From: Nitrosospira sp. Nsp11
Lineage (GTDB): Bacteria; Pseudomonadota; Gammaproteobacteria; Burkholderiales; Nitrosomonadaceae
NCBI RefSeq assembly: GCF_900142705.1
Contig: NZ_FRBV01000001.1
Coordinates: forward strand, 496,001 to 560,000
Length of the DNA: 64,000 nucleotides
Direction: 5' to 3'
Positions 4,148 through 34,731 of this stretch are shown here, in pieces. Made by a program: the position numbers and the translations under genes. The stretch's first letter is position 1; every line of letters begins with the position of its first letter. Under the pieces are notes generated by a model. It worked only from the letters and a program-made list of their open reading frames with translations, did not search any database and was not told where the DNA came from.

Positions 4148-6928
4148 ATGAAATCGCGTTTTTCCCGCCCCATTTGCTGGTCAGTTCTTTTGTTTTGCCT
4201 TGCATACGATGCGCGCGCAGATACGCCGTCGCCTGCCTCCGAAAGCAAAGCGCCGCCCGCCCGCACAACCAGTGACAACAAGCCTTCGCTTATCGACACA
4301 GAACACATACAGGGCCGCCATGAATATGAGGCTGAAGCCAGGGGCGAGGCTGAGCTGCGGCGTGACCGTCTGCGCTCAGCCGAACAAATGAAAGGTCGTC
4401 AAAAAACCGATGATAAGGCACTCGGAACTAACGCATCCACTGAACAACCCGGTAGCACTGCGGAAGGCGCTCAAACCAAGCCGAAGCAGAACTATACACG
4501 ATCACCGGCAGAAGAAAATGAGTCTGCTTTGGGCGGCTCGTCCATAGAAACGGAAATGGGTGAAAACGGGACTGCTCGCGCCCGAACTGGGCGCCCATCA
4601 GGTCATATGGCGGAAGAAGATGAAGCCAGGCTGCGCGGCAGCACACGGCCGGATTCCGCCAGCGTAACGGCTGGCGCCAAGCCGGATAAAAGCGCTTCGA
4701 CTTTTACCGAGGCTCAACATATCCATGGACACCTGGCACAGGAGGGTGAAGCAAAACTGCGGCTCGGAGGACAAGCCGAGCCTGAGGCTGAGGTCGAAGT
4801 GGCGACGGCCGAAATGGACACAGCAGCAAAAAAAACCAAACCTGTATTCGTTGCAGCTGAGCGAGTACAAGGGCACTCAGGCAAGGAAATCGAGGCGATA
4901 GGCAAGGCTGAGCTGTCTAACGGTGATCAGCTCATCTCCGCCGAGCGATTGAAATACAATCAGGAGACGGACGATGCGGAGGCCGAAGGCGGCGTGCGTG
5001 TCGAACAACGCGGCGATATATTGGAGGGCTCGCAGCTCAAGTTCAACCTCTTGAGCAAAACGGGACAGTTGAGCCAGCCCAACTATCGCTTGAAAGATGC
5101 CAGCAGCCGGGGCTATGCCGAGACGCTGCTCTTTGAGGGCGAGAACCAATATCGGCTAAAAAAGGCAACCTATACCACATGCCCGGCCGGGGACGACGAC
5201 TGGTTTCTTCAGGTGGCCAATCTCGAGCTCGACGATAAGACAAAAAAAGGCACGGCCAGAGCGGTTAAACTCACATTTCTGGACGTTCCCATATTGTATA
5301 CGCCCTGGATGAATTTTTCATATAGCGGACAGCGCAAGTCCGGCTTGCTCGCTCCCTTGTACGGTGTCAATGCCAAAACCGGCCTTGAACTCACTGTGCC
5401 TTTCTACTGGAATATTGCCCCCAATTATGATGCGACAGTCTCGGCACGCCTGATGTCCAAGCGTGGCGTCGCATTTAACAACGAGTTACGCTATCTGGGC
5501 GAGAACTCAAGCGGCACTTTATTGGCTGACGTATTGCCACGCGACCTGAGCACCGGGCAAACCCGCTGGCGCACGTCCCTCTTCCATAACTATAACCTGG
5601 GCTACGGCTTCTCCACCCGAATCGACTATAACCAGGTTTCCGATGACACCTATTTCCGCGATCTGGGCAACAGCCTGAACCTCACTTCTCGGACCAATCT
5701 GTTGCAGCAGGGCGTAGTGTCCTACAACCGCGCCTTGGGAGACGATGGCACGCTGAATTTCAGCTCGTTGGTACAAAGCTTTCAGACTATCCAGGATCCT
5801 CGCGCGCCTATTGCCGTCCCGTACAAGCGCCTGCCCCAGTTCACAGTCGCCGCGAACAAACCGGATGTTTTCGGCATGGACCTGAATCTTATCGGCAGCT
5901 GGTCAAATTTTTCGCATCCCACGCAAATAAACGGCACTCGCCTGGTGCTCTTTCCCAGCGTTAGCTACCCTCTTCGCAACTCATTTGGCTACATCACCCC
6001 GAAGATCGGGGTACACCATACCCGATATAACCTCGACGCTACCGCCTCGCCGGATTCGAATCCTAATCGTACCATCCCGATGTTCAGCGTCGACAGCGGG
6101 ATTGCGTTTGACCGCGGGATATCGCTGGGGGGCGAGCGCTTCACTCAAACGCTCGAGCCACGCTTGTTCTACGTATATGTGCCGTTTCGCGACCAGAGCC
6201 ATCTGCCCAACTTCGACTCCGCCAGGACGGACTTCAGCTTCGCTCAGATGTTGACCGAAAACCGCTTTAGCGGCAGCGACCGCATTAATGATGCGAATCA
6301 GGTGACGTTGGCGCTCACATCGCGCCTGATCGCGCCCAGTTCGGGCAGGGAAGTGGTGCGTGTCACCGTTGGCCAGCAGCTGAGCTTCATTGATCGCAGG
6401 ATAGTATTGGAGGCGCCAGGAACGATAAACCGTCGCCCGGATTTTGTTGCTGCGGTGACGGGGTTTATAACGCCGACAATCAGTACCGATTCAAGCGTGC
6501 AATATGACCAGACCCAGTTCATGGTCGACGTCGTACGCTCGGGCTTGAGCTATCGCCCCGAGCCTGGCAGGGTAGTCAATGTCGGTTATCGGTTTACGCG
6601 TGACGTGCTGCATCAGGTTGATGCCTCAAGCCAGTGGCGTTGGTCGGAAAAATGGCAAACTGTCGCGCGTCTGAATTACTCGCTGCAGGATCAGAGAATT
6701 CTGGAAGGACTGGCGGGACTTGAGTATAATGCGTGCTGCTGGTCGTTGCGGTTCGTACTCCAGCATCTCATCACCGCCACCCAGAAAACCACGACGGCGG
6801 CTTTTTTGCAGCTCGAGTTGAACGGGCTGATGCAAATCGGATCGAACCCGCTAAATGTCCTGCAACGCAGCATTCCGGGGTATACCAGAACGGGTGTCCC
6901 GGGAAACAGTCTCATGGAAAGTCCATAA
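4148..6928 (+). CDS. lptD: LPS-assembly protein LptD with expanded N-terminal repeats
   Basis: LptD is the outer-membrane beta-barrel that, with LptE, inserts lipopolysaccharide into the outer leaflet. The 926-residue protein has a signal peptide (cleavage near DARA-DT, residue 24), a long hydrophilic region (25-236), the LptA-like jellyroll domain (about 237-345) and a barrel to the end. The hydrophilic region holds imperfect copies of the sequence that normally begins the jellyroll (EHIQGRHEYEAEARGEAEL at 52-70, then weaker copies near 151-164 and 190-208, and the canonical one at 238-260). E. coli LptD has 784 residues, so this one is about 140 longer, mainly here. The mature protein has cysteines at 345, 863 and 864 only; the N-terminal cysteine used in E. 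coli is absent. No strong ribosome binding site precedes the ATG. The gene is followed by surA after 86 bases. Confidence 0.95.
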   Translation: MKSRFSRPICWSVLLFCLAYDARADTPSPASESKAPPARTTSDNKPSLIDTEHIQGRHEYEAEARGEAELRRDRLRSAEQMKGRQKTDDKALGTNASTEQPGSTAEGAQTKPKQNYTRSPAEENESALGGSSIETEMGENGTARARTGRPSGHMAEEDEARLRGSTRPDSASVTAGAKPDKSASTFTEAQHIHGHLAQEGEAKLRLGGQAEPEAEVEVATAEMDTAAKKTKPVFVAAERVQGHSGKEIEAIGKAELSNGDQLISAERLKYNQETDDAEAEGGVRVEQRGDILEGSQLKFNLLSKTGQLSQPNYRLKDASSRGYAETLLFEGENQYRLKKATYTTCPAGDDDWFLQVANLELDDKTKKGTARAVKLTFLDVPILYTPWMNFSYSGQRKSGLLAPLYGVNAKTGLELTVPFYWNIAPNYDATVSARLMSKRGVAFNNELRYLGENSSGTLLADVLPRDLSTGQTRWRTSLFHNYNLGYGFSTRIDYNQVSDDTYFRDLGNSLNLTSRTNLLQQGVVSYNRALGDDGTLNFSSLVQSFQTIQDPRAPIAVPYKRLPQFTVAANKPDVFGMDLNLIGSWSNFSHPTQINGTRLVLFPSVSYPLRNSFGYITPKIGVHHTRYNLDATASPDSNPNRTIPMFSVDSGIAFDRGISLGGERFTQTLEPRLFYVYVPFRDQSHLPNFDSARTDFSFAQMLTENRFSGSDRINDANQVTLALTSRLIAPSSGREVVRVTVGQQLSFIDRRIVLEAPGTINRRPDFVAAVTGFITPTISTDSSVQYDQTQFMVDVVRSGLSYRPEPGRVVNVGYRFTRDVLHQVDASSQWRWSEKWQTVARLNYSLQDQRILEGLAGLEYNACCWSLRFVLQHLITATQKTTTAAFLQLELNGLMQIGSNPLNVLQRSIPGYTRTGVPGNSLMESP

Positions 6929-21566: not shown

Positions 21567-23171
21567 ATGAAACTTTATTGGCGAATCATGCTCGCATCTG
21601 CAATTTCAATATTGCCGGTCGGTGTGATTCAAGCGGATGTGAATACCGGGAAATTTGAGGCGCCGGGAATGAGTAAAGAAGACGCCCGAATTGGCCGGAA
21701 AGATGAAGGCAAGGCTTTAGAGTCGCAACTTACTGAAACTATTAATAAAGCGGATGCGAAAAAACCATCCTCGCCGAAAGCGGAAAAGAAATCGACAAGC
21801 TACTTCAAGCCTTCCAGCAGCTATTCCACCCAACCGGAATCCGATCCGCCTCGATACGTGCAGACTCTCAGCAAAACCGGTATTGAAGCATTCAAGGATA
21901 TCTACTGGCTGGATATCGGCCTGGACCACCGGACGCGTTACGAATTTCGCAGCAACGATATTCGGCGTACCGACATGAGACTCGACCAGCCTTTTCTGCT
22001 GCGCTCGCGCGCATATGTCGGGATAAGGGAAATTCTAGATCCATTTCGGGGCGCTGTCGAGTTTCAGGATTCGCGCCGCTACAACGGCAATTTTCCGCAT
22101 GACGACCGTGATTTCAACGACTATGAACTGATTCAGGCATATGGCGAGCTCTACTTCAAAAGCGCATTGGGTGAAGACGACCGGAAACAACAGCGCCCCA
22201 TCAGGTTTCGCGTTGGCCGCATGGCATATGAGGCATTGGATCGACGTCTGATCGGCCGGAACGAATGGCGTAATACCACGAACACGTTCGAGGGTTTTCG
22301 ACTCAATCTGGGCCAGGAAGCAAACGACTGGGAAGTTGATTTATGGGCTTACCAACCTGTCAAGCGCCTGCTGACCGAGTTTGACGAGCGCATCGAGAAT
22401 CAGTGGTTCTATGGTGCAATCGGCCATTGGCGGAAGTGGTCTGACATTATCACACTCCAGCCGTATTACATGGGCCTTACGCAGGATGGAAGCAAGACAG
22501 GGCAGATCGACCGGCATATTCACGCGCCTGCCCTGAGAGGTTACGGCAAAATAGGGAATACCGGTCTGGACTTCGATTTCAACCTGATCTATCAGTTCGG
22601 ACGGAATGGCACAGAAGAACATGAGGCGCATGCTTATATCACTGAGGTGGGATATAACCTCGAGTACGGTTGGAAACCCCGTATCAGCGCGTTTTATGGG
22701 TATGCAAGCGGTGATCGGCATCCCAATGATGGTGTAAACAATCGCTTTGAGCGGTTCTTTGGTTTTGCGCGGCCCTGGTCGGCGGACGATTACATCGTTT
22801 TCGAAAACATCAAGGCGCCCAAAGTCAAGCTTGAGTTTCAGCCGACAGCGGACTTGCGTATAGATGGCGGTTACAGTTGGTTCTGGCTAGCCAGCAGTAC
22901 GGATCGCTTTAACAATCTCCTTGATGGCAATACGAGTGCGCGCCCCAACCCCGGTTTTAATCGGGATATTACCGGAAGAAGCGGTGATTTCATTGGCCAC
23001 TCCTTTGATATTCGTGCACGCTACAAGATTGCGAAACATATCAGCACAACTGTGGGTTACTCACATTTTACAAGTGGTGAGTTCACGCGTAACAGACAGG
23101 TAGCGGCACTTGGCAAAAGCCCCGGCAGTTCCGACTTTTTTTATGTTGAAGTGGTAGTCAGTGCTTTTTAA
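21567..23171 (+). CDS. Alginate-export-type outer-membrane beta-barrel protein
   Basis: The 534-residue protein has a signal peptide (cleavage near IQA-DV), a lysine/serine-rich periplasmic linker (about 25-95) and a barrel with the pattern of the alginate_exp family: [26 protein letters not shown] and [24 protein letters not shown]. It ends with alternating strands and a terminal aromatic (VVVSAF), as needed by the BAM machinery. The start follows CAGGAGAGAGGA. The next gene, sbp, begins 50 bases later, so the barrel probably lets an anionic sulfur compound through the outer membrane under sulfur limitation. Alginate itself is unlikely as a substrate because no alginate genes are near. Function is inferred. 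Confidence 0.75.
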
Positions 23172-23221: not shown

Positions 23222-24223
23222 ATGAAACTCAAACCATGGCTGACAACAGGTCTGCTGATTGGAGGTCTCCTCACTGGCGGAAGCGCGTCAGCGGACAGAA
23301 CGCTATTGAATGTTTCCTATGATCCAACGCGTGAACTTTATCAGGAGTTCAACGCGGCATTCGTGAAGCACTGGGAGACAAAGACCGGGGAAAAGGTCGC
23401 CATCAAGCAGTCCCACGGTGGCTCCGGCAAGCAGGCACGGTCCGTCATCGATGGCCTTGATGCTGATGTGGTGACACTGGCCCTGGCCAATGATATCAAC
23501 GAAATTGCAGAGAAGGCAAAGCTGATTCCAGGAGATTGGCAGAAGCGTTTGCCACATAACGGCACACCCTATACATCGACCATCGTACTGCTGGTACGTA
23601 AAGGCAATCCCAAGAATATCAAGGACTGGAACGACCTTGCCAGACCAGGCATATCCGTAATTACCCCCAACCCCAAAACTTCGGGAGGCGCGCGCTGGAA
23701 TTATCTGGCGGCCTGGGAGTATGGGAAGCGGAGCTATGGTAATGACGCCAAGGCAAAGGAGTTTGTGGCCAGGATTTACAGGAATGTTCCCGTGCTGGAT
23801 TCCGGGGCACGAGGTTCTACCACGACTTTCGTGGAGCGGGGCATTGGTGATGTCTTCATCTCCTGGGAAAACGAGGCCTTCCTGGCCATCAAGGAGCTCG
23901 GTGTCGGTAAATTCGAGATTGTCGCGCCGTCGATCAGCATCCTGGCTGAGCCGCCCGTCACCGTGATAGACAAGGTCATCGACAGGAAGGGCACGCGCGA
24001 TGTGGCGGAAGCTTATCTAACGTATCTCTACTCGGAACAGGGCCAGGAAATCGCCGCGAGAAACTTCTACCGGCCCACCGATTCGAAGGTTGCGGCGAAA
24101 TATGCAGATCGATTCCCCGCCATCAAGCTGTTCAAGATTGATGACACGTTTGGCGGCTGGAAGAACGCGCATAAGCTGCATTTTGCGGATGGGGGCACGT
24201 TCGACCAGATTTATCAGCAATGA
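23222..24223 (+). CDS. sbp: Sulfate-binding periplasmic protein
   Basis: This protein binds sulfate (perhaps also thiosulfate) in the periplasm and delivers it to CysTWA. The 333 residues start with a signal peptide (cleavage near ASA-DR, residue 24). Family motifs follow: [37 protein letters not shown] and [16 protein letters not shown], in which SGGARW contacts the anion. The start has AGAGGAA upstream. Its stop overlaps the next start by four bases (ATGA), which argues for co-translation. Confidence 0.95.
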
Positions 24224-24654
24224 AAACTTTGGCTGGCTGGAGTAAATCGTATATCGGGGGCCCTGACATGACAGCATTAATCATCGGCGGAGATTACATT
24301 GAAATGTTAAAGCGGGAACTTCTCGCGCACGGCTTGAGGCGCGTCGAACACTGGGATGGCCGACAACCAAGAGTTACCAAGCGCGCGATTCCTGTTAGCG
24401 CCAGGCTAGTGGTGATACTGCATGATTATGTCAGCCATGGTGTGTCGAACGCTTTAAAGCAGCAAGCGTATAGAAAAGACATACCGCTGGTGTTCTGCCG
24501 CAGCTCGACGCATGACCTGCGCGAAAAGCTGAGGAGTCTCGACTTGGCGGAGAATTCCTGTCGCAGCTGCGACGCACTCGGGTCCGGATTCATGAACGGA
24601 TTGACACGCTGGCATCCAGGCAACTTTACCGGGATGAACCGGATTCATGCCTGA
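24220..24654 (+). CDS. DUF2325 domain protein in the sulfate locus
   Basis: The 144-residue protein has the DUF2325 pattern: [20 protein letters not shown] at about 19-38, then [20 protein letters not shown], and [13 protein letters not shown]. The domain looks like a small Rossmann-type nucleotide or ligand sensor, but no activity is established. The C-terminal tail contains [10 protein letters not shown], a CxxC pair that could bind metal or form a disulfide. The first ATG overlaps the sbp stop by four bases; an ATG at 24268 is also possible. It is followed after 14 bases by the EAL-like gene. Confidence 0.7.
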
Positions 24655-24668
24655 AGAAGGAGAGGCAC

Positions 24669-25529
24669 GTGAATATGGAAGCGACAAATAAACATTATGA
24701 ATTTGAGCAAATCCAGGCAGTTACCGATCATCTTTTACAGCGCGCGGAAGATGGCGGGGTAGCTGGCTATTTTTTCAACAATGAGCTATCCAGCGTCTTT
24801 CAGCCAGTATTCGATGCAATTAGACGCCGTGTGGTGGGGCATTCTGCTTACATCCGTTCCAAGCCGGACCGCGATGCTGTGTTGTCGCCCTGGGGAGTTT
24901 TCGCACTGGCTTCCGAGGACACTTTACTGGTCAGCCTGGATCGCCTCTGCCGTACGCTACATGCGATCAATTATTTCAGGGTTGCCTCAGGGCAGGGCAG
25001 TCTTTTTGTCAGCGTACAGCCTCGCCTTCTGGAGAGCGTCAAGGACGATCACGGACTAGCGTTTGAGAACATACTGAATCTCATCGGAATCAGAACCTCG
25101 CGCGTGGTGATCGAGATTCCGAGCGAGGTGAATCGCGACTTGAGGTTGCTCAAGCACGTCATCGGAAACTATCGTTCGCGTGGGTATCGCGTCGCAGCGA
25201 ATCACAGCGGCGCAAATGACGAGAGCATGACGGAGCTGGGAAGCCTATATCCGGACATCGTAAGGCTGAATGCTTCCACGCTGCTGCAACATGATGGAAC
25301 AGATACGCTGCTGGACACAGCCCATCGCTTGGGGGCTGCCATCCTGGTAACTGGTATCGAAACCAGGCAGCAGGTGATTTCCGCGGTTCGCACGGGTGCT
25401 GATTTATTGCAAGGTCGCTTTCTTGGGGAACCAGCCCGGATGCTCGAAGTGGATGAGCCAGACGCTGCCGGGAATGTGCATCAACCTGCAGAAGGCCGAT
25501 CGACGGATGCGGGTATAAATTTCAGCTAA
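24669..25529 (+). CDS. Catalytically degenerate EAL domain protein
   Basis: The 286-residue soluble protein aligns along its length with the EAL (c-di-GMP phosphodiesterase) fold. The positions of the active motifs are changed: EALLR becomes SAYIR (59-63), the metal-binding Asn motif becomes VSVQP (114-118), DDFG becomes NHSG (178-181), the KID lysine becomes arginine in VRLN (198-201), and AEGVE becomes VTGIE (227-231). The glutamates of IEIPSE (148-153) and the QGRFLGEP end are kept. It should therefore not hydrolyse c-di-GMP but may bind it or a protein. The start is GTG at 24669 after AAGGAGA, or ATG at 24675. It lies between the DUF2325 gene and cysT, 27 bases before the latter. Confidence 0.8.
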   Translation: MNMEATNKHYEFEQIQAVTDHLLQRAEDGGVAGYFFNNELSSVFQPVFDAIRRRVVGHSAYIRSKPDRDAVLSPWGVFALASEDTLLVSLDRLCRTLHAINYFRVASGQGSLFVSVQPRLLESVKDDHGLAFENILNLIGIRTSRVVIEIPSEVNRDLRLLKHVIGNYRSRGYRVAANHSGANDESMTELGSLYPDIVRLNASTLLQHDGTDTLLDTAHRLGAAILVTGIETRQQVISAVRTGADLLQGRFLGEPARMLEVDEPDAAGNVHQPAEGRSTDAGINFS

Positions 25530-25556
25530 CCGGAAAACCGGAGTGCAAGGTTGAGT

Positions 25557-26384
25557 ATGTTCAAACGACATAGCGTTCTGCCGGGGTTCAACCTGGCACT
25601 TGGATTTACCCTGGTTTATCTGAGCCTGATCGTGCTTATCCCACTGTCGGCTGCATTCATCCGTACGTCTGCGCTCACATGGCCGGAATTTTGGGCCATG
25701 GTCACGACTCCACGGGTAATGGCATCGTACCGATTGACGTTCGGCGCTTCATTTGCAGCGGCGCTGGTCAATGCCGTATTCGGTTTTCTGGTGGCGTGGA
25801 TACTGGTACGTTATCGCTTTCGGGGCAAGAAACTGGTGGATGCATTGGTAGACCTTCCGTTTGCGTTGCCGACAGCGGTGGCGGGCATTGTACTGACTGC
25901 ACTCTATTCCGGAAATGGCTGGATCGGCCAATATTTCGAACCGCTTGGAATCAAGATTGCTTTTACGCCAATTGGTATTTTTATCGCACTGACCTTCATC
26001 GGTTTGCCTTTCGTCGTAAGAACGGTACAGCCGGTACTCGAAGACATCGAATGGGAATTGGAGGAAGCAGCCGCTACACTGGGTGCATCCCGGCTGCAAA
26101 CTTTCGTTAAAGTCATTTTTCCCACGATTTTTCCGGCCCTGACAACCGGCTTTGCGCTCGCCTTCGCCCGCGCCATCGGTGAATACGGTTCGGTAATTTT
26201 TATTGCCGGCAATATGCCGATGATATCGGAGATCACGCCTCTCCTGATCGTTACCAAGCTTGAGCAATACGATTATGCGGGCGCCACGGCATTGGCAGTG
26301 GTAATGCTCGTAATTTCGTTTGTGATGCTGCTGATCATCAATCTGCTGCAGTGGTGGAGCAGACGCCGGAGCGCCGCCATATGA
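25557..26384 (+). CDS. cysT: Sulfate/thiosulfate ABC transporter permease CysT
   Basis: CysT (CysU) is one of the two membrane subunits of the sulfate importer. The ATG at 25557 follows AAGG by six bases and gives 275 residues; a TTG at 25551 is also in frame. Six hydrophobic segments are visible. The ABC-permease EAA loop reads [20 protein letters not shown] at about 176-195. [19 protein letters not shown] is the typical CysT signature. cysW follows after 10 bases. Confidence 0.95.
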
Positions 26385-26394
26385 GGATGCGCCG

Positions 26395-27279
26395 ATGAGT
26401 GCAACCGCCCTTCCAATTCCCACCGGCAAGCGTCGGGTGGCCACGGACGAACCTGGCTGGGTACGGTGGGTTTTGATTGGGCTGGCGCTCGCCTTCCTGG
26501 CGCTGTTCCTCTTCATCCCCCTGATCCTGGTCTTCTACGAAGCCCTGAAAAAAGGCGTGGATGTCTACGTGGCCGCCATCACCGAACCTGATGCAGTAGC
26601 GGCGATCGAGCTTACCCTGACCGCGGCGGCGATCGCCGTACCACTCAACTTGATATTCGGCGTAGCGGCCGCTTGGGCTATTGCCAAGTTCGAGTTCCGC
26701 GGCAAGAGCCTGCTGATAACGCTTATCGATTTGCCTTTCTCGGTTTCGCCAGTGGTAGCGGGACTGATCTATGTGCTTATCTTCGGCCTGCAAGGCTGGT
26801 TGGGACCCTGGCTGGCGGAAAACGACATCAAGATAATTTTTGCGATACCCGGCATCGTCCTCGCCACTATCTTCGTAACTGTCCCCTTTATCGCCCGTGA
26901 GCTTATCCCATTGATGCAGGCACAGGGCACCGAAGAGGAGGAAGCGGCGGTGGTACTGGGCGCCAACGGCTGGCAGATATTCTTCCGTGTGACGCTCCCG
27001 AACATCAAATGGGGTTTGTTGTATGGCGTCATCCTCTGCAATGCCCGGGCAATGGGCGAATTCGGCGCGGTATCCGTGGTATCGGGCCACATTCGCGGCA
27101 GTACCAATACCCTGCCGCTTCATGTCGAGATCCTCTACAACGAATATAACTTTGCTGCTGCCTTTGCGGTCGCGTCGCTGCTGGCGTTGCTTGCATTGGT
27201 GACGCTTGCGCTGAAGGCGTTCGTTGAATCCAGAAACAAGCAGCAAACGGAGAATGCCAATGAGCATCGAAGTACGTAA
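26395..27279 (+). CDS. cysW: Sulfate/thiosulfate ABC transporter permease CysW
   Basis: CysW is the second membrane subunit. The 294 residues have a hydrophilic N-terminus of about 25 residues, six hydrophobic segments, and the EAA loop [20 protein letters not shown]. The CysW signature [20 protein letters not shown] is complete. Its last 20 bases overlap the start of cysA, so translation is probably coupled. Confidence 0.95.
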
Positions 27280-28339
27280 TCTTTCTAAGCAATTTGGAAA
27301 TTTCGCTGCATTACGAGACGTCAGCCTTGAGGTCCGCACGGGTGAATTGCTTGCATTGCTCGGGCCGTCGGGCTCCGGAAAGACAACATTACTGCGTGTA
27401 ATTGCGGGGCTGGAGGCTGCCGATGCCGGCCATGTTCTGTTCCAGGGCGAAGACGCAACCGGACAGCATGTGCGTGAGCGCCGGGTAGGTTTCGTATTTC
27501 AGCACTATGCGCTGTTCCGGAATATGACCATCTTCGAGAATGTCGCATTCGGCTTGCGCGTCCGTGCGAAAAACGTCCGCCCGACCAATACAGAGATCAG
27601 CGACCGCGTGCATAATTTGCTGAAGCTGGTACAACTCGACTGGCTGGCCGACCGCCACCCGCACCAGCTTTCTGGGGGCCAGCGCCAGCGCGTCGCCCTT
27701 GCGCGGGCTTTGGCCGTCGAACCTAAAGTATTGTTATTGGACGAGCCTTTTGGAGCGCTCGACGCCAAGGTACGTAAGGAACTCCGCGCCTGGTTGCGAA
27801 GGCTACACGACGAAATGCATATCACCAGCGTGTTCGTTACCCATGATCAGGAGGAAGCGCTGGAAGTGGCTGACCGGGTAGTGGTTATGAATGAGGGCCG
27901 CATCGAGCAGATCGGCACGCCGGATGAGGTGTATGAGCAGCCGGCAAGTCCGTTTGTGTACGAATTTCTAGGCAAGGTGAATCTGTTCCACGGCCGGTTA
28001 CATAAGGGGCGAGCCTGGATAGACGGGATCGAGGTTGACGCGCCCGAGCACATAGAAGCAGAGGAACTGGCGGCGATAGCTTACGTGCGTCCTCATGATA
28101 TCCACGTGGACCGGGTGGTTAACGGTAGCGGCGCGCTTGAGGCGCGCGTATCTCATATTCTCTCGGTCGGCCCCGTAGTGCGTCTTGAGCTGATCCGCGA
28201 CGGCGACGGCAACAATAGCAAGGAACTGATTCAGGTCGAAATCAGCAAGGAGCGCTTTCGCGAATTACAATTAATCCCGGGTGATCAGGTTTTCATCAAA
28301 CCTTCACGCTTCGATCTATTCCCGGCTCGGATACACTGA
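27260..28339 (+). CDS. cysA: Sulfate/thiosulfate ABC transporter ATPase CysA
   Basis: CysA is the ATPase that powers the CysTW channel. From the ATG at 27260 (GGAG seven bases upstream) it has 359 residues. Walker A is GPSGSGKTT, the Q-loop follows in VFQHYALF, the signature is LSGGQRQR, Walker B is [14 protein letters not shown], and the H-loop is VTHDQEEA. The C-terminal 120 residues form the TOBE-like regulatory domain (YVRPHDIHV). This is the last gene of the sulfate locus; no cysB gene follows. Confidence 0.96.
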
Positions 28340-28493: not shown

Positions 28494-28928
28494 CTACTCA
28501 ACAACTTCTAGAATGCCCTCCATCCCGTGTTCCCTGTGGCTTTTGAGAAAGAGCAGCTTTTCGGGGCAATAGAAAGCATACGTGCCAGGCGCGCTTGGGG
28601 TGAAGGTGAATATTTTGGACTCCCGGCTCAGATTTTCATCGATCGAGATATTCGCTCTGGGCGCCCTGAGTACAAAGCCATGAGGAATGATCCCCGGTTC
28701 CACGCGAACCACGAACATTACAGGCATATTAACTTTGACGATGATGTGCTTGGGCCTGAAAAAATAGTCTCCCGCCAGGATATTCACGTGTTGCACCCCA
28801 TCGACGCCAACTACTGCCCGATAAGGTTCATTGCCCGGTTGCGCGACGGCACGTCCCGTTGCGAAGCAGAAGACCAACGCCAGCATCAGGGACAAAAAAC
28901 AGGGGGATAAAAACCGCTGTGGGTTCAT
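28494..28928 (-). CDS. Exported cupredoxin
   Basis: The protein has 144 residues from the ATG at 28928, which has AAGGAG seven bases upstream; the longer ATG at 28946 is less likely. A signal peptide (cleavage near AVA-QP) is followed by one cupredoxin domain. Candidate copper ligands are His83 (IIPHGF), Cys121 (AFYCPE), His131 or His134 (SHREHGM) and Met136. The long loop between cysteine and C-terminal histidine differs from plastocyanin and azurin. It may carry electrons or store copper in the periplasm. It converges with the cysA end, 154 bases away. Confidence 0.8.
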   Translation of the reverse strand: MNPQRFLSPCFLSLMLALVFCFATGRAVAQPGNEPYRAVVGVDGVQHVNILAGDYFFRPKHIIVKVNMPVMFVVRVEPGIIPHGFVLRAPRANISIDENLSRESKIFTFTPSAPGTYAFYCPEKLLFLKSHREHGMEGILEVVE

Positions 28929-28946
28929 AATGAATCTCCTTACCAT

Positions 28947-29332: not shown

Positions 29333-29449
29333 GTGCCTGGCAGTGACCTACTTTCGCATGTGAAAACACACTATCATCGGCGCGACTTCGTTTCACGACC
29401 CTGTTCGAGATGGGAAGGGGTGGGTCCAAAGCGCTATGACCGCCAAGCG
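29333..29449 (-). rRNA. rrf: 5S ribosomal RNA
   Basis: The reverse complement has the 5S layout: paired ends GCTTGGCGGTC and GACC..CACTGCCAGGC, the CCCATCTCGAACAGGG loop, and the GAAACG and GCCGATGATAGTGTG segments. Its length is about 117 bases. It lies downstream of 23S, as in a standard rrn operon. Ends are placed by comparison with E. coli 5S and may be off by a few bases. Confidence 0.92.
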
Positions 29450-29625
29450 TAACTTTTAATGACAAACAATGGAAGCCATGACTATAAGTCTTGGGCTTCT
29501 ATCGAAAGCCACTGATCTGGAAGAAGTAAATCTGGATTAGTTTGTATTGGCGAAACAACTTACACGACATGAAAATGTATGAATTGATTTTTTATTCTTC
29601 ATATTTCATGCCTTGCTTAAGGTTA

Positions 29626-32508
<2,883 letters not shown>

Positions 32509-32517
<9 letters not shown>

Positions 32518-32528
32518 TATAACCTTAA
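32509..32528. repeat. 23S processing stem, 5' arm
   Basis: Partner of the arm at 29617-29636; the 20 bases pair perfectly and enclose the 23S rRNA. Confidence 0.8.
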
Positions 32529-32911
32529 GGGCTTAGGAAGCAGTCGGAAGCCGGCCTGAAACCCGGAGTCTTCGTTTTATCTTCCAAACCATCTGGTTAT
32601 AGTTGTTTGCTCACATCGCGTCCGACTAAAAACGCGATGAGTCGATACAATCTAACCCATTATTTCGTATCCTCGGAATACAAGCTCCAATTAAGGGCGC
32701 ACGTATTCATCGGATATGAAATACTTTACTTCTTCCAAATTTTTAAAGAACGTCGAGAAACAGTTTGGTAAAGAATCAGGGAGTGATAATATAACTACCC
32801 GGATACTTTCCGCGCTATTCCCGAAATACAGCCGCTGGTAAAAACCAGAAGTAAACGTTGTCGTTTACTTCTACTTTCTAAGTAGATTCACGTGAGTTCC
32901 GATTTCTGAAC
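32529..32911 (-). other. Spacer between tRNA-Ala and 23S
   Basis: About 380 bases of transcribed spacer. It holds a boxA-like antitermination element at 32738-32751 and otherwise no gene. Confidence 0.6.
32738..32751 (-). promoter_or_regulatory. boxA-like element in the rrn spacer
   Basis: On the minus strand it reads GTTCTTTAAAAATT, close to the rrn boxA consensus TGCTCTTTAACA. It resembles the leader element at 34917-34930, so the Nus antitermination complex probably reloads before 23S. Confidence 0.6.
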
Positions 32912-32987
32912 TGGTGGAGGTGAACGGGATCGAACCGATGACCCCCTGCTTGCAAAGCAGGTGCTCTCCCATCTGAGCTACACCCCC
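32912..32987 (-). tRNA. tRNA-Ala (TGC)
   Basis: A 76-base cloverleaf begins GGGGGTGTAGCTCAG and ends with an encoded CCA. The anticodon loop is TTTGCAA with anticodon TGC, and the T-loop is GGTTCGATCCC. It lies in the 16S-23S spacer, next to tRNA-Ile, as in most betaproteobacteria. Confidence 0.97.
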
Positions 32988-32993
32988 TTTAGT

Positions 32994-33070
<77 letters not shown>

Positions 33071-33156
33071 TGAACAGAGCCTGGAAACAAAGAGATGGGC
33101 TTTTGTCGTCACTAGCCTATGGCTCCTTAGCCCCCTAGCTTTGCTTTTTTAGACAA

Positions 33157-33178
33157 CCGATAGGTTGTGAGCGCTTGA
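33157..33178. repeat. 16S processing stem, 3' arm
   Basis: The sequence (CCGATAGGTTGTGAGCGCTT and two more bases) is nearly the reverse complement of 34890-34910, with one mismatch and one bulge. The arms enclose the 16S gene and probably form the RNase III stem. Confidence 0.65.
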
Positions 33179-33192
33179 AACAGGAATTTCTC

Positions 33193-34731
<1,539 letters not shown>

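Follow-up and report, generated by a model that had tools for sequence, protein, structure and literature searches.

Inactive EAL proteins have been associated chiefly with motility, pili, adhesion and RNA decay; a role in iron uptake, by way of YdiV and Fur, was added recently. Scored here were eight positions that are common to canonical EAL domains and have catalytic roles: the Glu of EAL, an Asn, the Glu of ExTE, two Asp, a Lys, the Glu of EGVE and a Gln. FimX and LapD are multi-domain proteins. YdiV, according to PMC10333796 and PMC7515728, consists of an EAL domain alone, lacks activity and exerts its effects on FlhD4C2 and Fur; a table in the review PMC10333796 also lists the ExLxR motif for FimX and LapD. 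We describe here a stand-alone EAL protein encoded within the sulfate operon of Nitrosospira sp. Nsp11. The account that we favor, tentatively and at somewhat less than an even chance, is drawn by analogy with YdiV: the protein would be a non-hydrolytic pseudo-phosphodiesterase of the sulfur-acquisition regulon that regulates by protein contact, with CysB as a first guess for the partner.

The EAL gene and its sulfate operon

Positions are those of the window, the whole stretch of 64,000 nucleotides that was analyzed. The EAL gene lies at 24669..25529 on the + strand, with a GTG start and AAGGAG upstream, and encodes a degenerate protein of 286 amino acids, identified on the basis of Pfam, an AlphaFold2 model and 42 relatives. 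Three genes precede it on the same strand: an Alginate_exp-type outer-membrane porin, the first gene of the conserved block (21567..23171; Pfam 415.6 bits), the sulfate-binding periplasmic protein Sbp (23222..24223; NCBIfam PRK10752, 526.2 bits for a cut-off of 288), and a DUF2325 protein (24220..24654; Pfam, 41.6 bits for a cut-off of 33.6). It is followed, again on the + strand, by the sulfate ABC permeases CysT (25551..26384; TIGR02139, 428.8 bits, cut-off 246.1) and CysW (26395..27279; TIGR02140, 426.1 bits, cut-off 329.1) and by the sulfate ABC ATPase CysA (27224..28339; TIGR00968, 396.2 bits, cut-off 342.75), the true start of which is probably near 27260. The gene order is porin-Sbp-DUF2325-EAL-CysT-CysW-CysA, with gaps of 14 bases between the EAL and DUF2325 genes and 21 bases between the EAL gene and CysT. 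Further downstream, a complete rRNA operon (16S, tRNA-Ile, tRNA-Ala, 23S, 5S) occupies 29335-34731 on the - strand, approximately 390 bases past a cupredoxin-like gene (28494-28946, - strand); the + strand open reading frames at 29.6-32.5 kb are antisense to the 23S gene.

Relatives of the EAL protein with 50-71% identity were found at 42 loci, the named genera being Nitrosospira, Nitrosovibrio and Nitrosomonas. Neighbors at these loci are Sbp (40), the porin (39; the same number for CysT) and DUF2325 (28), two of the loci (L023 and L055) being cut by contig ends. The 14 EAL loci without a DUF2325 match of 60 bits include these two; outside the family, DUF2325 was found at one of 20 wide loci (L089) and weakly at L063 (42 bits). 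An earlier note on this DNA had proposed the DUF2325 protein as a partner, a suggestion that these counts disfavor, and as an obligate partner it was rejected. Over 120 Nitrosomonadaceae genomes, the EAL gene was present in 65 (E up to 1e-40) and CysT in 84 (E up to 1e-80), both occurring together in 63 (Fisher p 3e-13, a value that ignores shared descent and the linkage itself). Because 21 of the 84 genomes bearing CysT are without the EAL gene, sulfate uptake does not depend upon it.

Some family loci carry additional genes within the block. At L024 (6929-9650) a family 2A encapsulin (SrpI-like, PF19307, 354.8 bits) and a cysteine desulfurase of 605 amino acids lie between the EAL gene and CysT. 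Matches and gap size indicate the same arrangement also at L022, L023, L025, L031, L033-L036, L055 and L056, and at L032 and L048 the encapsulin stands with Sbp and a CysB-family gene at loci without CysTWA; over the 42 loci there were encapsulin matches in 14 and desulfurase matches in 13. The family 2A encapsulin is a known sulfur-starvation compartment according to PMC8049743, so its position between the EAL gene and CysT means that this compartment shares the EAL gene block.

Fold and catalytic residues

The only domain found in the Nsp11 protein was EAL (PF00563), which scored 102.5 bits by Pfam (cut-off 31.3) over residues 37-255. AlphaFold2 with 43 aligned rows predicted an EAL barrel (pLDDT 79.8, pTM 0.81), and Foldseek matched this predicted model to the solved EAL domains 3n3t and YkuI at E ~6e-15 (5.8e-15 for 3n3t). 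Comparison of the model with 6ij2 gave a VIA Z of 23.7 and an rmsd of 2.6 over 216 aligned residues. The structures matched include FimX and LapD; YdiV is absent from the 50 listed, which is no test of kinship. The Pfam score and the predicted barrel place the protein in the EAL superfamily, and the model contains the barrel that the earlier note expected, not the barrel-less structure that it named as refutation.

Alignment with the genome's own EAL domains was used as the yardstick for the catalytic motifs. Of ten other EAL domains aligned, nine keep 8/8 positions and one keeps 4/8, two further EAL proteins (L011/L012 and L014) having been left out. The Nsp11 protein keeps 2/8. Its motifs, all on the + strand, read SAYIR for ExLxR (residues 59-63, 24843..24857), with the catalytic Glu replaced by Ser and the Arg kept; Ser115 for the first-strand Asn (25011..25013); NHSG for DDFG (residues 178-181, 25200..25211); VRLN for the xKxD strand (residues 198-201, 25260..25271), in which Lys is replaced by Arg; and VTGIE for xEGxE (residues 227-231, 25347..25361), in which the first Glu is lost and the last kept. 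The earlier note had read the same four motif swaps and the loss of the Asn from the sequence, and the alignment bears it out; the fold motifs FQPV, IEIP and LQG are likewise still present. Its wording that nearly all catalytic residues are lost is slightly strong, as Q45, R63, E149, E231 and Q248 remain. Judged by these residues, the protein lacks the full catalytic set of an active c-di-GMP phosphodiesterase and is probably non-hydrolytic. The same genome contains a second degenerate EAL domain at L010 (G000:C15:191618-192289), inside a frame of 733 amino acids, with the motifs QEAFVR, EHFG and ADGVQ and 4/8 catalytic positions, a pattern that we take to be LapD-like.

The losses extend across the family. 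Across the 41 related loci compared (all but the cut L055), the Glu of EAL survives at 1, the Asn at 2 and the first Asp of DDFG at 6; the second Asp of DDFG, the Lys (Arg at 41/41) and the first Glu of EGVE are kept at none. Retained are the Gln of QPx at 41, the Arg of ExLxR at 39, the Glu of ExTE at 38 and the Gln of QG at 40. The recurrence of the same losses at 41 loci places the degeneration beyond chance or assembly error, and the counts indicate that most losses predate the radiation of the family and that the remainder of the residues has been maintained.

The retained residues bear on the possibility that the protein is a c-di-GMP receptor, a degenerate EAL domain that binds the nucleotide without cutting it, like FimX or LapD, and couples the sessile state to sulfur uptake. 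Counterparts of Q45, R63 and Q248 contact c-di-GMP in other EAL proteins, and their retention makes binding possible; the near-complete conservation of the four residues above, the presence of FimX and LapD among the structural matches, and the mostly intact (8/8) state of relatives without sulfur neighbors all fit such a role. Against it, the Glu of ExLxR, a motif listed for FimX and LapD in PMC10333796, is lost at 40 of 41 loci, the second Asp and the Lys are lost at all 41, and among sulfur-linked relatives at greater distance the number of positions kept falls to as low as 0/8. On balance we consider a receptor role conceivable but unlikely.

Sulfur genes and EAL proteins outside the family

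When 250 genomes of the order were searched with a profile, 61 had matches (E up to 1e-25), and a search of 370 genomes of the class gave 29 loci. Sulfate genes (Sbp, CysT or CysW) were present within 1.5-kb flanks at 18 of 25 loci from the order search (L064-L088) and at 3 of the 29 class-search loci, all three being degenerate and from genomes outside the order; the same 1.5-kb test found them at none of the 13 other EAL loci of the Nsp11 genome. L063, which is outside the family and linked, was left out of this matched-flank count. Wider stretches, some of which are broader views of loci already named, revealed the order Sbp-EAL-CysTWA at L093, L095, L097, L098, L139, L140, L154, L157 and L158, the order EAL-Sbp-CysTWA at L096 and L100, and, at ten more loci, Sbp adjoining the EAL gene or close to it (L092, L094, L101, L104-L106, L141, L152, L153 and L156). 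At L089 (8141-9931), a single open reading frame combines S-adenosylmethionine synthetase domains with a sulfonate-type substrate-binding protein, either an assembly artefact or a real fusion.

The linkage is not confined to sulfate genes. The sulfonate genes SsuA, SsuD and SsuC lie 5' of the EAL gene at L099 and L103, each above its cut-off, as does a member of the SsuA family at L091 (237.6 bits for a cut-off of 163.5); at L102 and L107 sulfonate genes 5' of the EAL gene were recognized by similarity only. The taurine protein TauA adjoins the EAL gene at L149 (397.6 bits for a cut-off of 304.25) and lies 3.3 kb from it at L148 (416 bits). No sulfur linkage was found within the fetched stretches of L108, L142, L144-L147, L150, L151 and L155; a PatB-type C-S lyase approximately 1 kb from the EAL gene at L151 was not counted as linkage.

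These arrangements argue against a direct regulator of the sulfate permease, which would bind CysT, CysW or CysA and gate uptake. The 21-base gap to CysT, and the presence of CysT in 63 of the 65 genomes bearing the EAL gene, are what such a regulator would lead one to expect. However, the EAL genes at L090, L091, L148 and L149 stand beside sulfonate or taurine transporters or CysB with no CysTW in the fetched stretch, and those at L032 and L048 have their Sbp, encapsulin and CysB-family neighbors with no CysTW at the locus. We regard gating of the permease as rather improbable, and the proposal of CysT and CysW as partners in the earlier note is weakened by the same six loci.

A regulator of the CysB type, the third candidate of the earlier note, is a possible partner. 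CysB-family genes occur at most 5 kb from the EAL gene at 6 of the 42 family loci and within approximately 7 kb at nine outside loci (L090-L092, L097-L099, L103, L107 and L143), that of L091 passing the CysB cut-off (476.5 versus 436). The CysB gene of the Nsp11 genome (469.2 bits, cut-off 436) is on another contig, and a second CysB-family gene is likewise unlinked to the operon. This separation, and the closeness of CysB-family genes at no more than 6 of 42 family loci, weigh against CysB.

To relate linkage to degeneration, a 99-row tree was assembled from 14 of the 42 family loci (chosen by us) with further copies, the order- and class-search loci, two plasmid loci, 13 loci picked from match lists (L143-L155) and 10 EAL domains of the Nsp11 genome; short or cut rows (including L055 and L065), L084 and one L087 fragment were dropped. 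Dropping 28 further rows (near copies, long branches and repeats) and removing the catalytic motif columns gave a 71-row tree with full bootstraps. This tree contains a sulfur clade of 44 rows, 38 of them linked (support 97/87), and a subclade of 22 rows, all linked, that holds the Nsp11 protein (support 97/91); intact relatives without sulfur neighbors form the base. By its placement, and by the position of its gene beside sulfur-acquisition genes, the Nsp11 protein belongs to a sulfur-linked EAL clade.

With the EAL set of the Nsp11 genome excluded and 'degenerate' defined as fewer than 8/8 positions, the 89 remaining rows comprised 52 sulfur-linked rows (47 degenerate, 5 intact) and 37 rows without a sulfur link (7 degenerate, from six genes, and 30 intact), a table that is no independent test because kinship groups much of the pattern. 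Two genes stand twice among the unlinked rows (L135 = L144, L088 = L145), and the label 'linked' derives from flanks of differing width, ±1.5 kb for most loci of the class search and wider elsewhere; L066 is linked only through a CysB gene 2 kb off, and L148 and L149 through taurine transporters. An independent-pairs test of linkage against degeneration yielded 6 pairs and a p of 1, and was uninformative. The five intact rows with a sulfur link may represent active enzymes, so linkage alone is no proof of a non-catalytic role.

The sulfur clade includes intact members (L074, L079, L082, L083 and L085, which are linked, and L087, which is unlinked), partly worn members (L069, L071, L072, L153 and L154) and strongly worn forms. 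The last fall into three forks, the order of which is unsettled with the catalytic columns dropped, and we accordingly count between one and three losses of catalysis and claim no single loss. A separate partial loss has occurred in the clade besides these.

Intact and degenerate sulfur-linked proteins have conserved residues in common outside the catalytic motifs. The helix D91-R92-x2-R95-x2-H98-x2-N101 (24939..24971, + strand) is invariant in 24/24 rows of one alignment (A2) and in all sulfur-linked rows, both the 11 with at least 5/8 catalytic positions and the 41 with fewer; G129 is fixed in the same rows, and H128 and F132 nearly so. H128-G129-x2-F132 (25050..25064, + strand) behaves as a clade motif, H128 having frequencies of 0.98 and 1.00 in the sulfur-linked sets versus 0.20 in the 30 unlinked intact rows, where G129 stands at 0.43 and F132 at 0.47. 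N167 is present at 0.90 and 0.82 in the sulfur-linked sets versus 0.00 in the unlinked intact rows. In the predicted model these residues lie in a helix at 84-105, at the start of a helix at 128-138 and at the end of a helix at 158-169. These non-catalytic residues may have a structural role; they are nevertheless what selection has retained since the loss of catalysis.

R92, R95, H98 and N101, which by their spacing lie on one side of the helix and are fixed in 52/52 sulfur-linked rows, might instead belong to a sensor of a sulfur metabolite, in which the ligand of the EAL pocket or of this Arg/His/Asn helix would be an anion, for example sulfate, adenylylsulfate or O-acetylserine, instead of c-di-GMP. 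We find this doubtful, since intact relatives without a sulfur link often have the helix residues too (D91 0.97, R92 0.60, R95 0.83, H98 0.70, N101 0.67) and may be structural.

Selection, proposed role and known systems

Among 203 of 240 pairs with more than 70% identity and a computable dS, dN/dS had a median of 0.09 and a maximum of 0.31, and 49 columns are invariant in an alignment of 16 rows. The EAL gene is under purifying selection and is not decaying. It is very improbable that the gene is a non-functional relic retained through linkage to the sulfate operon: the 21 CysT genomes without it, single in-frame stops in the best match from each of G649, G652 and G662 and a frameshift at L017 would suit a relic, but the median dN/dS, the invariant columns and the tandem second copies in several Nitrosomonas loci oppose it. 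The dN/dS values likewise oppose pseudogene status.

Copies of the gene vary in their state. At L034, L045, L050, L051 and L052 the degenerate EAL gene is followed in tandem by a second copy with an open frame, and the second of two EAL matches in G688 crosses two stop codons. In L017 (5974-6867), from a metagenome-assembled genome, the frame departs from the domain near the C-terminus and the rest is found in an overlapping frame (6441-6821), a frameshift that is either real or assembly-derived. An extra EAL-like protein follows CysA in Nitrosomonas at L029, L037, L038, L039, L041 and L042 (approximately 9.7-10.7 kb in each locus), the version at L054 being broken in two frames; it is too worn for Pfam in L039 and keeps the DRxxRxxHxxN helix and the HGxxF motif. 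The model of this copy (A4) is poor (pLDDT 53.5).

The account that we tentatively favor, that of a pseudo-phosphodiesterase regulating sulfur acquisition by protein contact, would run as follows. The ancestor would have been a c-di-GMP phosphodiesterase whose gene was already linked to sulfur genes, with hydrolysis lost later, and the function that remains may be binding, through the D91-N101 helix, the HGxxF motif and N167-R169. The target would be shared across the regulon, the first candidate being the LysR regulator CysB or its relative Cbl; since the linked transporters serve different sulfur sources, a regulon-wide target is likelier than one permease. The EAL protein would be expressed alongside the uptake genes when sulfur is limiting and could tune the regulator by binding it directly, in the way that YdiV acts on FlhD4C2 and Fur, a mode of action proposed by analogy because YdiV shows no close kinship. 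A broader version, which we put forward as a speculation with the odds clearly against it, is that a widespread EAL family turned from phosphodiesterase into a dedicated sulfur-acquisition regulator contacting CysB or Cbl, the step from intact to inactive having been taken within one clade and the linkage and a non-catalytic binding surface having been kept.

Inactive EAL proteins were known already, and the tie of one clade to sulfur acquisition is the new part. Literature on EAL proteins together with sulfate or sulfonate genes, CysB, encapsulin or Nitrosomonas contained no such sulfur-linked family in the titles and opening lines of abstracts among the matches listed. With a clade linked to the uptake of sulfate, sulfonate and taurine, the roles of the EAL fold would extend to sulfur nutrition, in ammonia oxidizers and other bacteria. 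Since this one clade holds members with like neighbors that range from intact through partly worn to fully worn, the role of a phosphodiesterase that does not cut can be tested by comparison of orthologues.

Of the known systems, YdiV/RflP of E. coli and Salmonella resembles the Nsp11 protein in being a stand-alone EAL fold without catalysis. It binds transcription factors, including Fur, which governs nutrient uptake (PMC10333796 and PMC7515728), a mode that in our case is suggested by analogy. Close kinship with YdiV was not supported: its best identity to the EAL rows compared is 21%, the profile probability is 24 over 82 columns, it has motif residues of its own (VELITH, LGNLG), and ydiV is not among sulfur genes in E. 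coli K-12. Its nearest tree rows are outside the sulfur clade, but the branch of YdiV itself (4.46) is too long for safe placement. YkuI of Bacillus subtilis (2bas, 2w27) is the best sequence match among solved structures (E 2.8e-11, or 2.2e-23 with the family profile) and has a DHGxxF-like stretch, but its chain of 431 amino acids continues past the EAL domain and it keeps several residues that the Nsp11 protein has lost. FimX and LapD share the EAL barrel without hydrolysis, yet ExLxR is listed for them in PMC10333796, whereas the Nsp11 protein is, like 40 of the 41 related loci, without its Glu. The Nsp11 protein can also be set beside the sulfur-linked intact EAL proteins (L074, L079, L082, L083 and L085), which share the clade, the Sbp neighbor, CysTWA at some loci and the same fixed helix residues, and differ in having 8/8 catalytic positions, by which they are presumably active phosphodiesterases.
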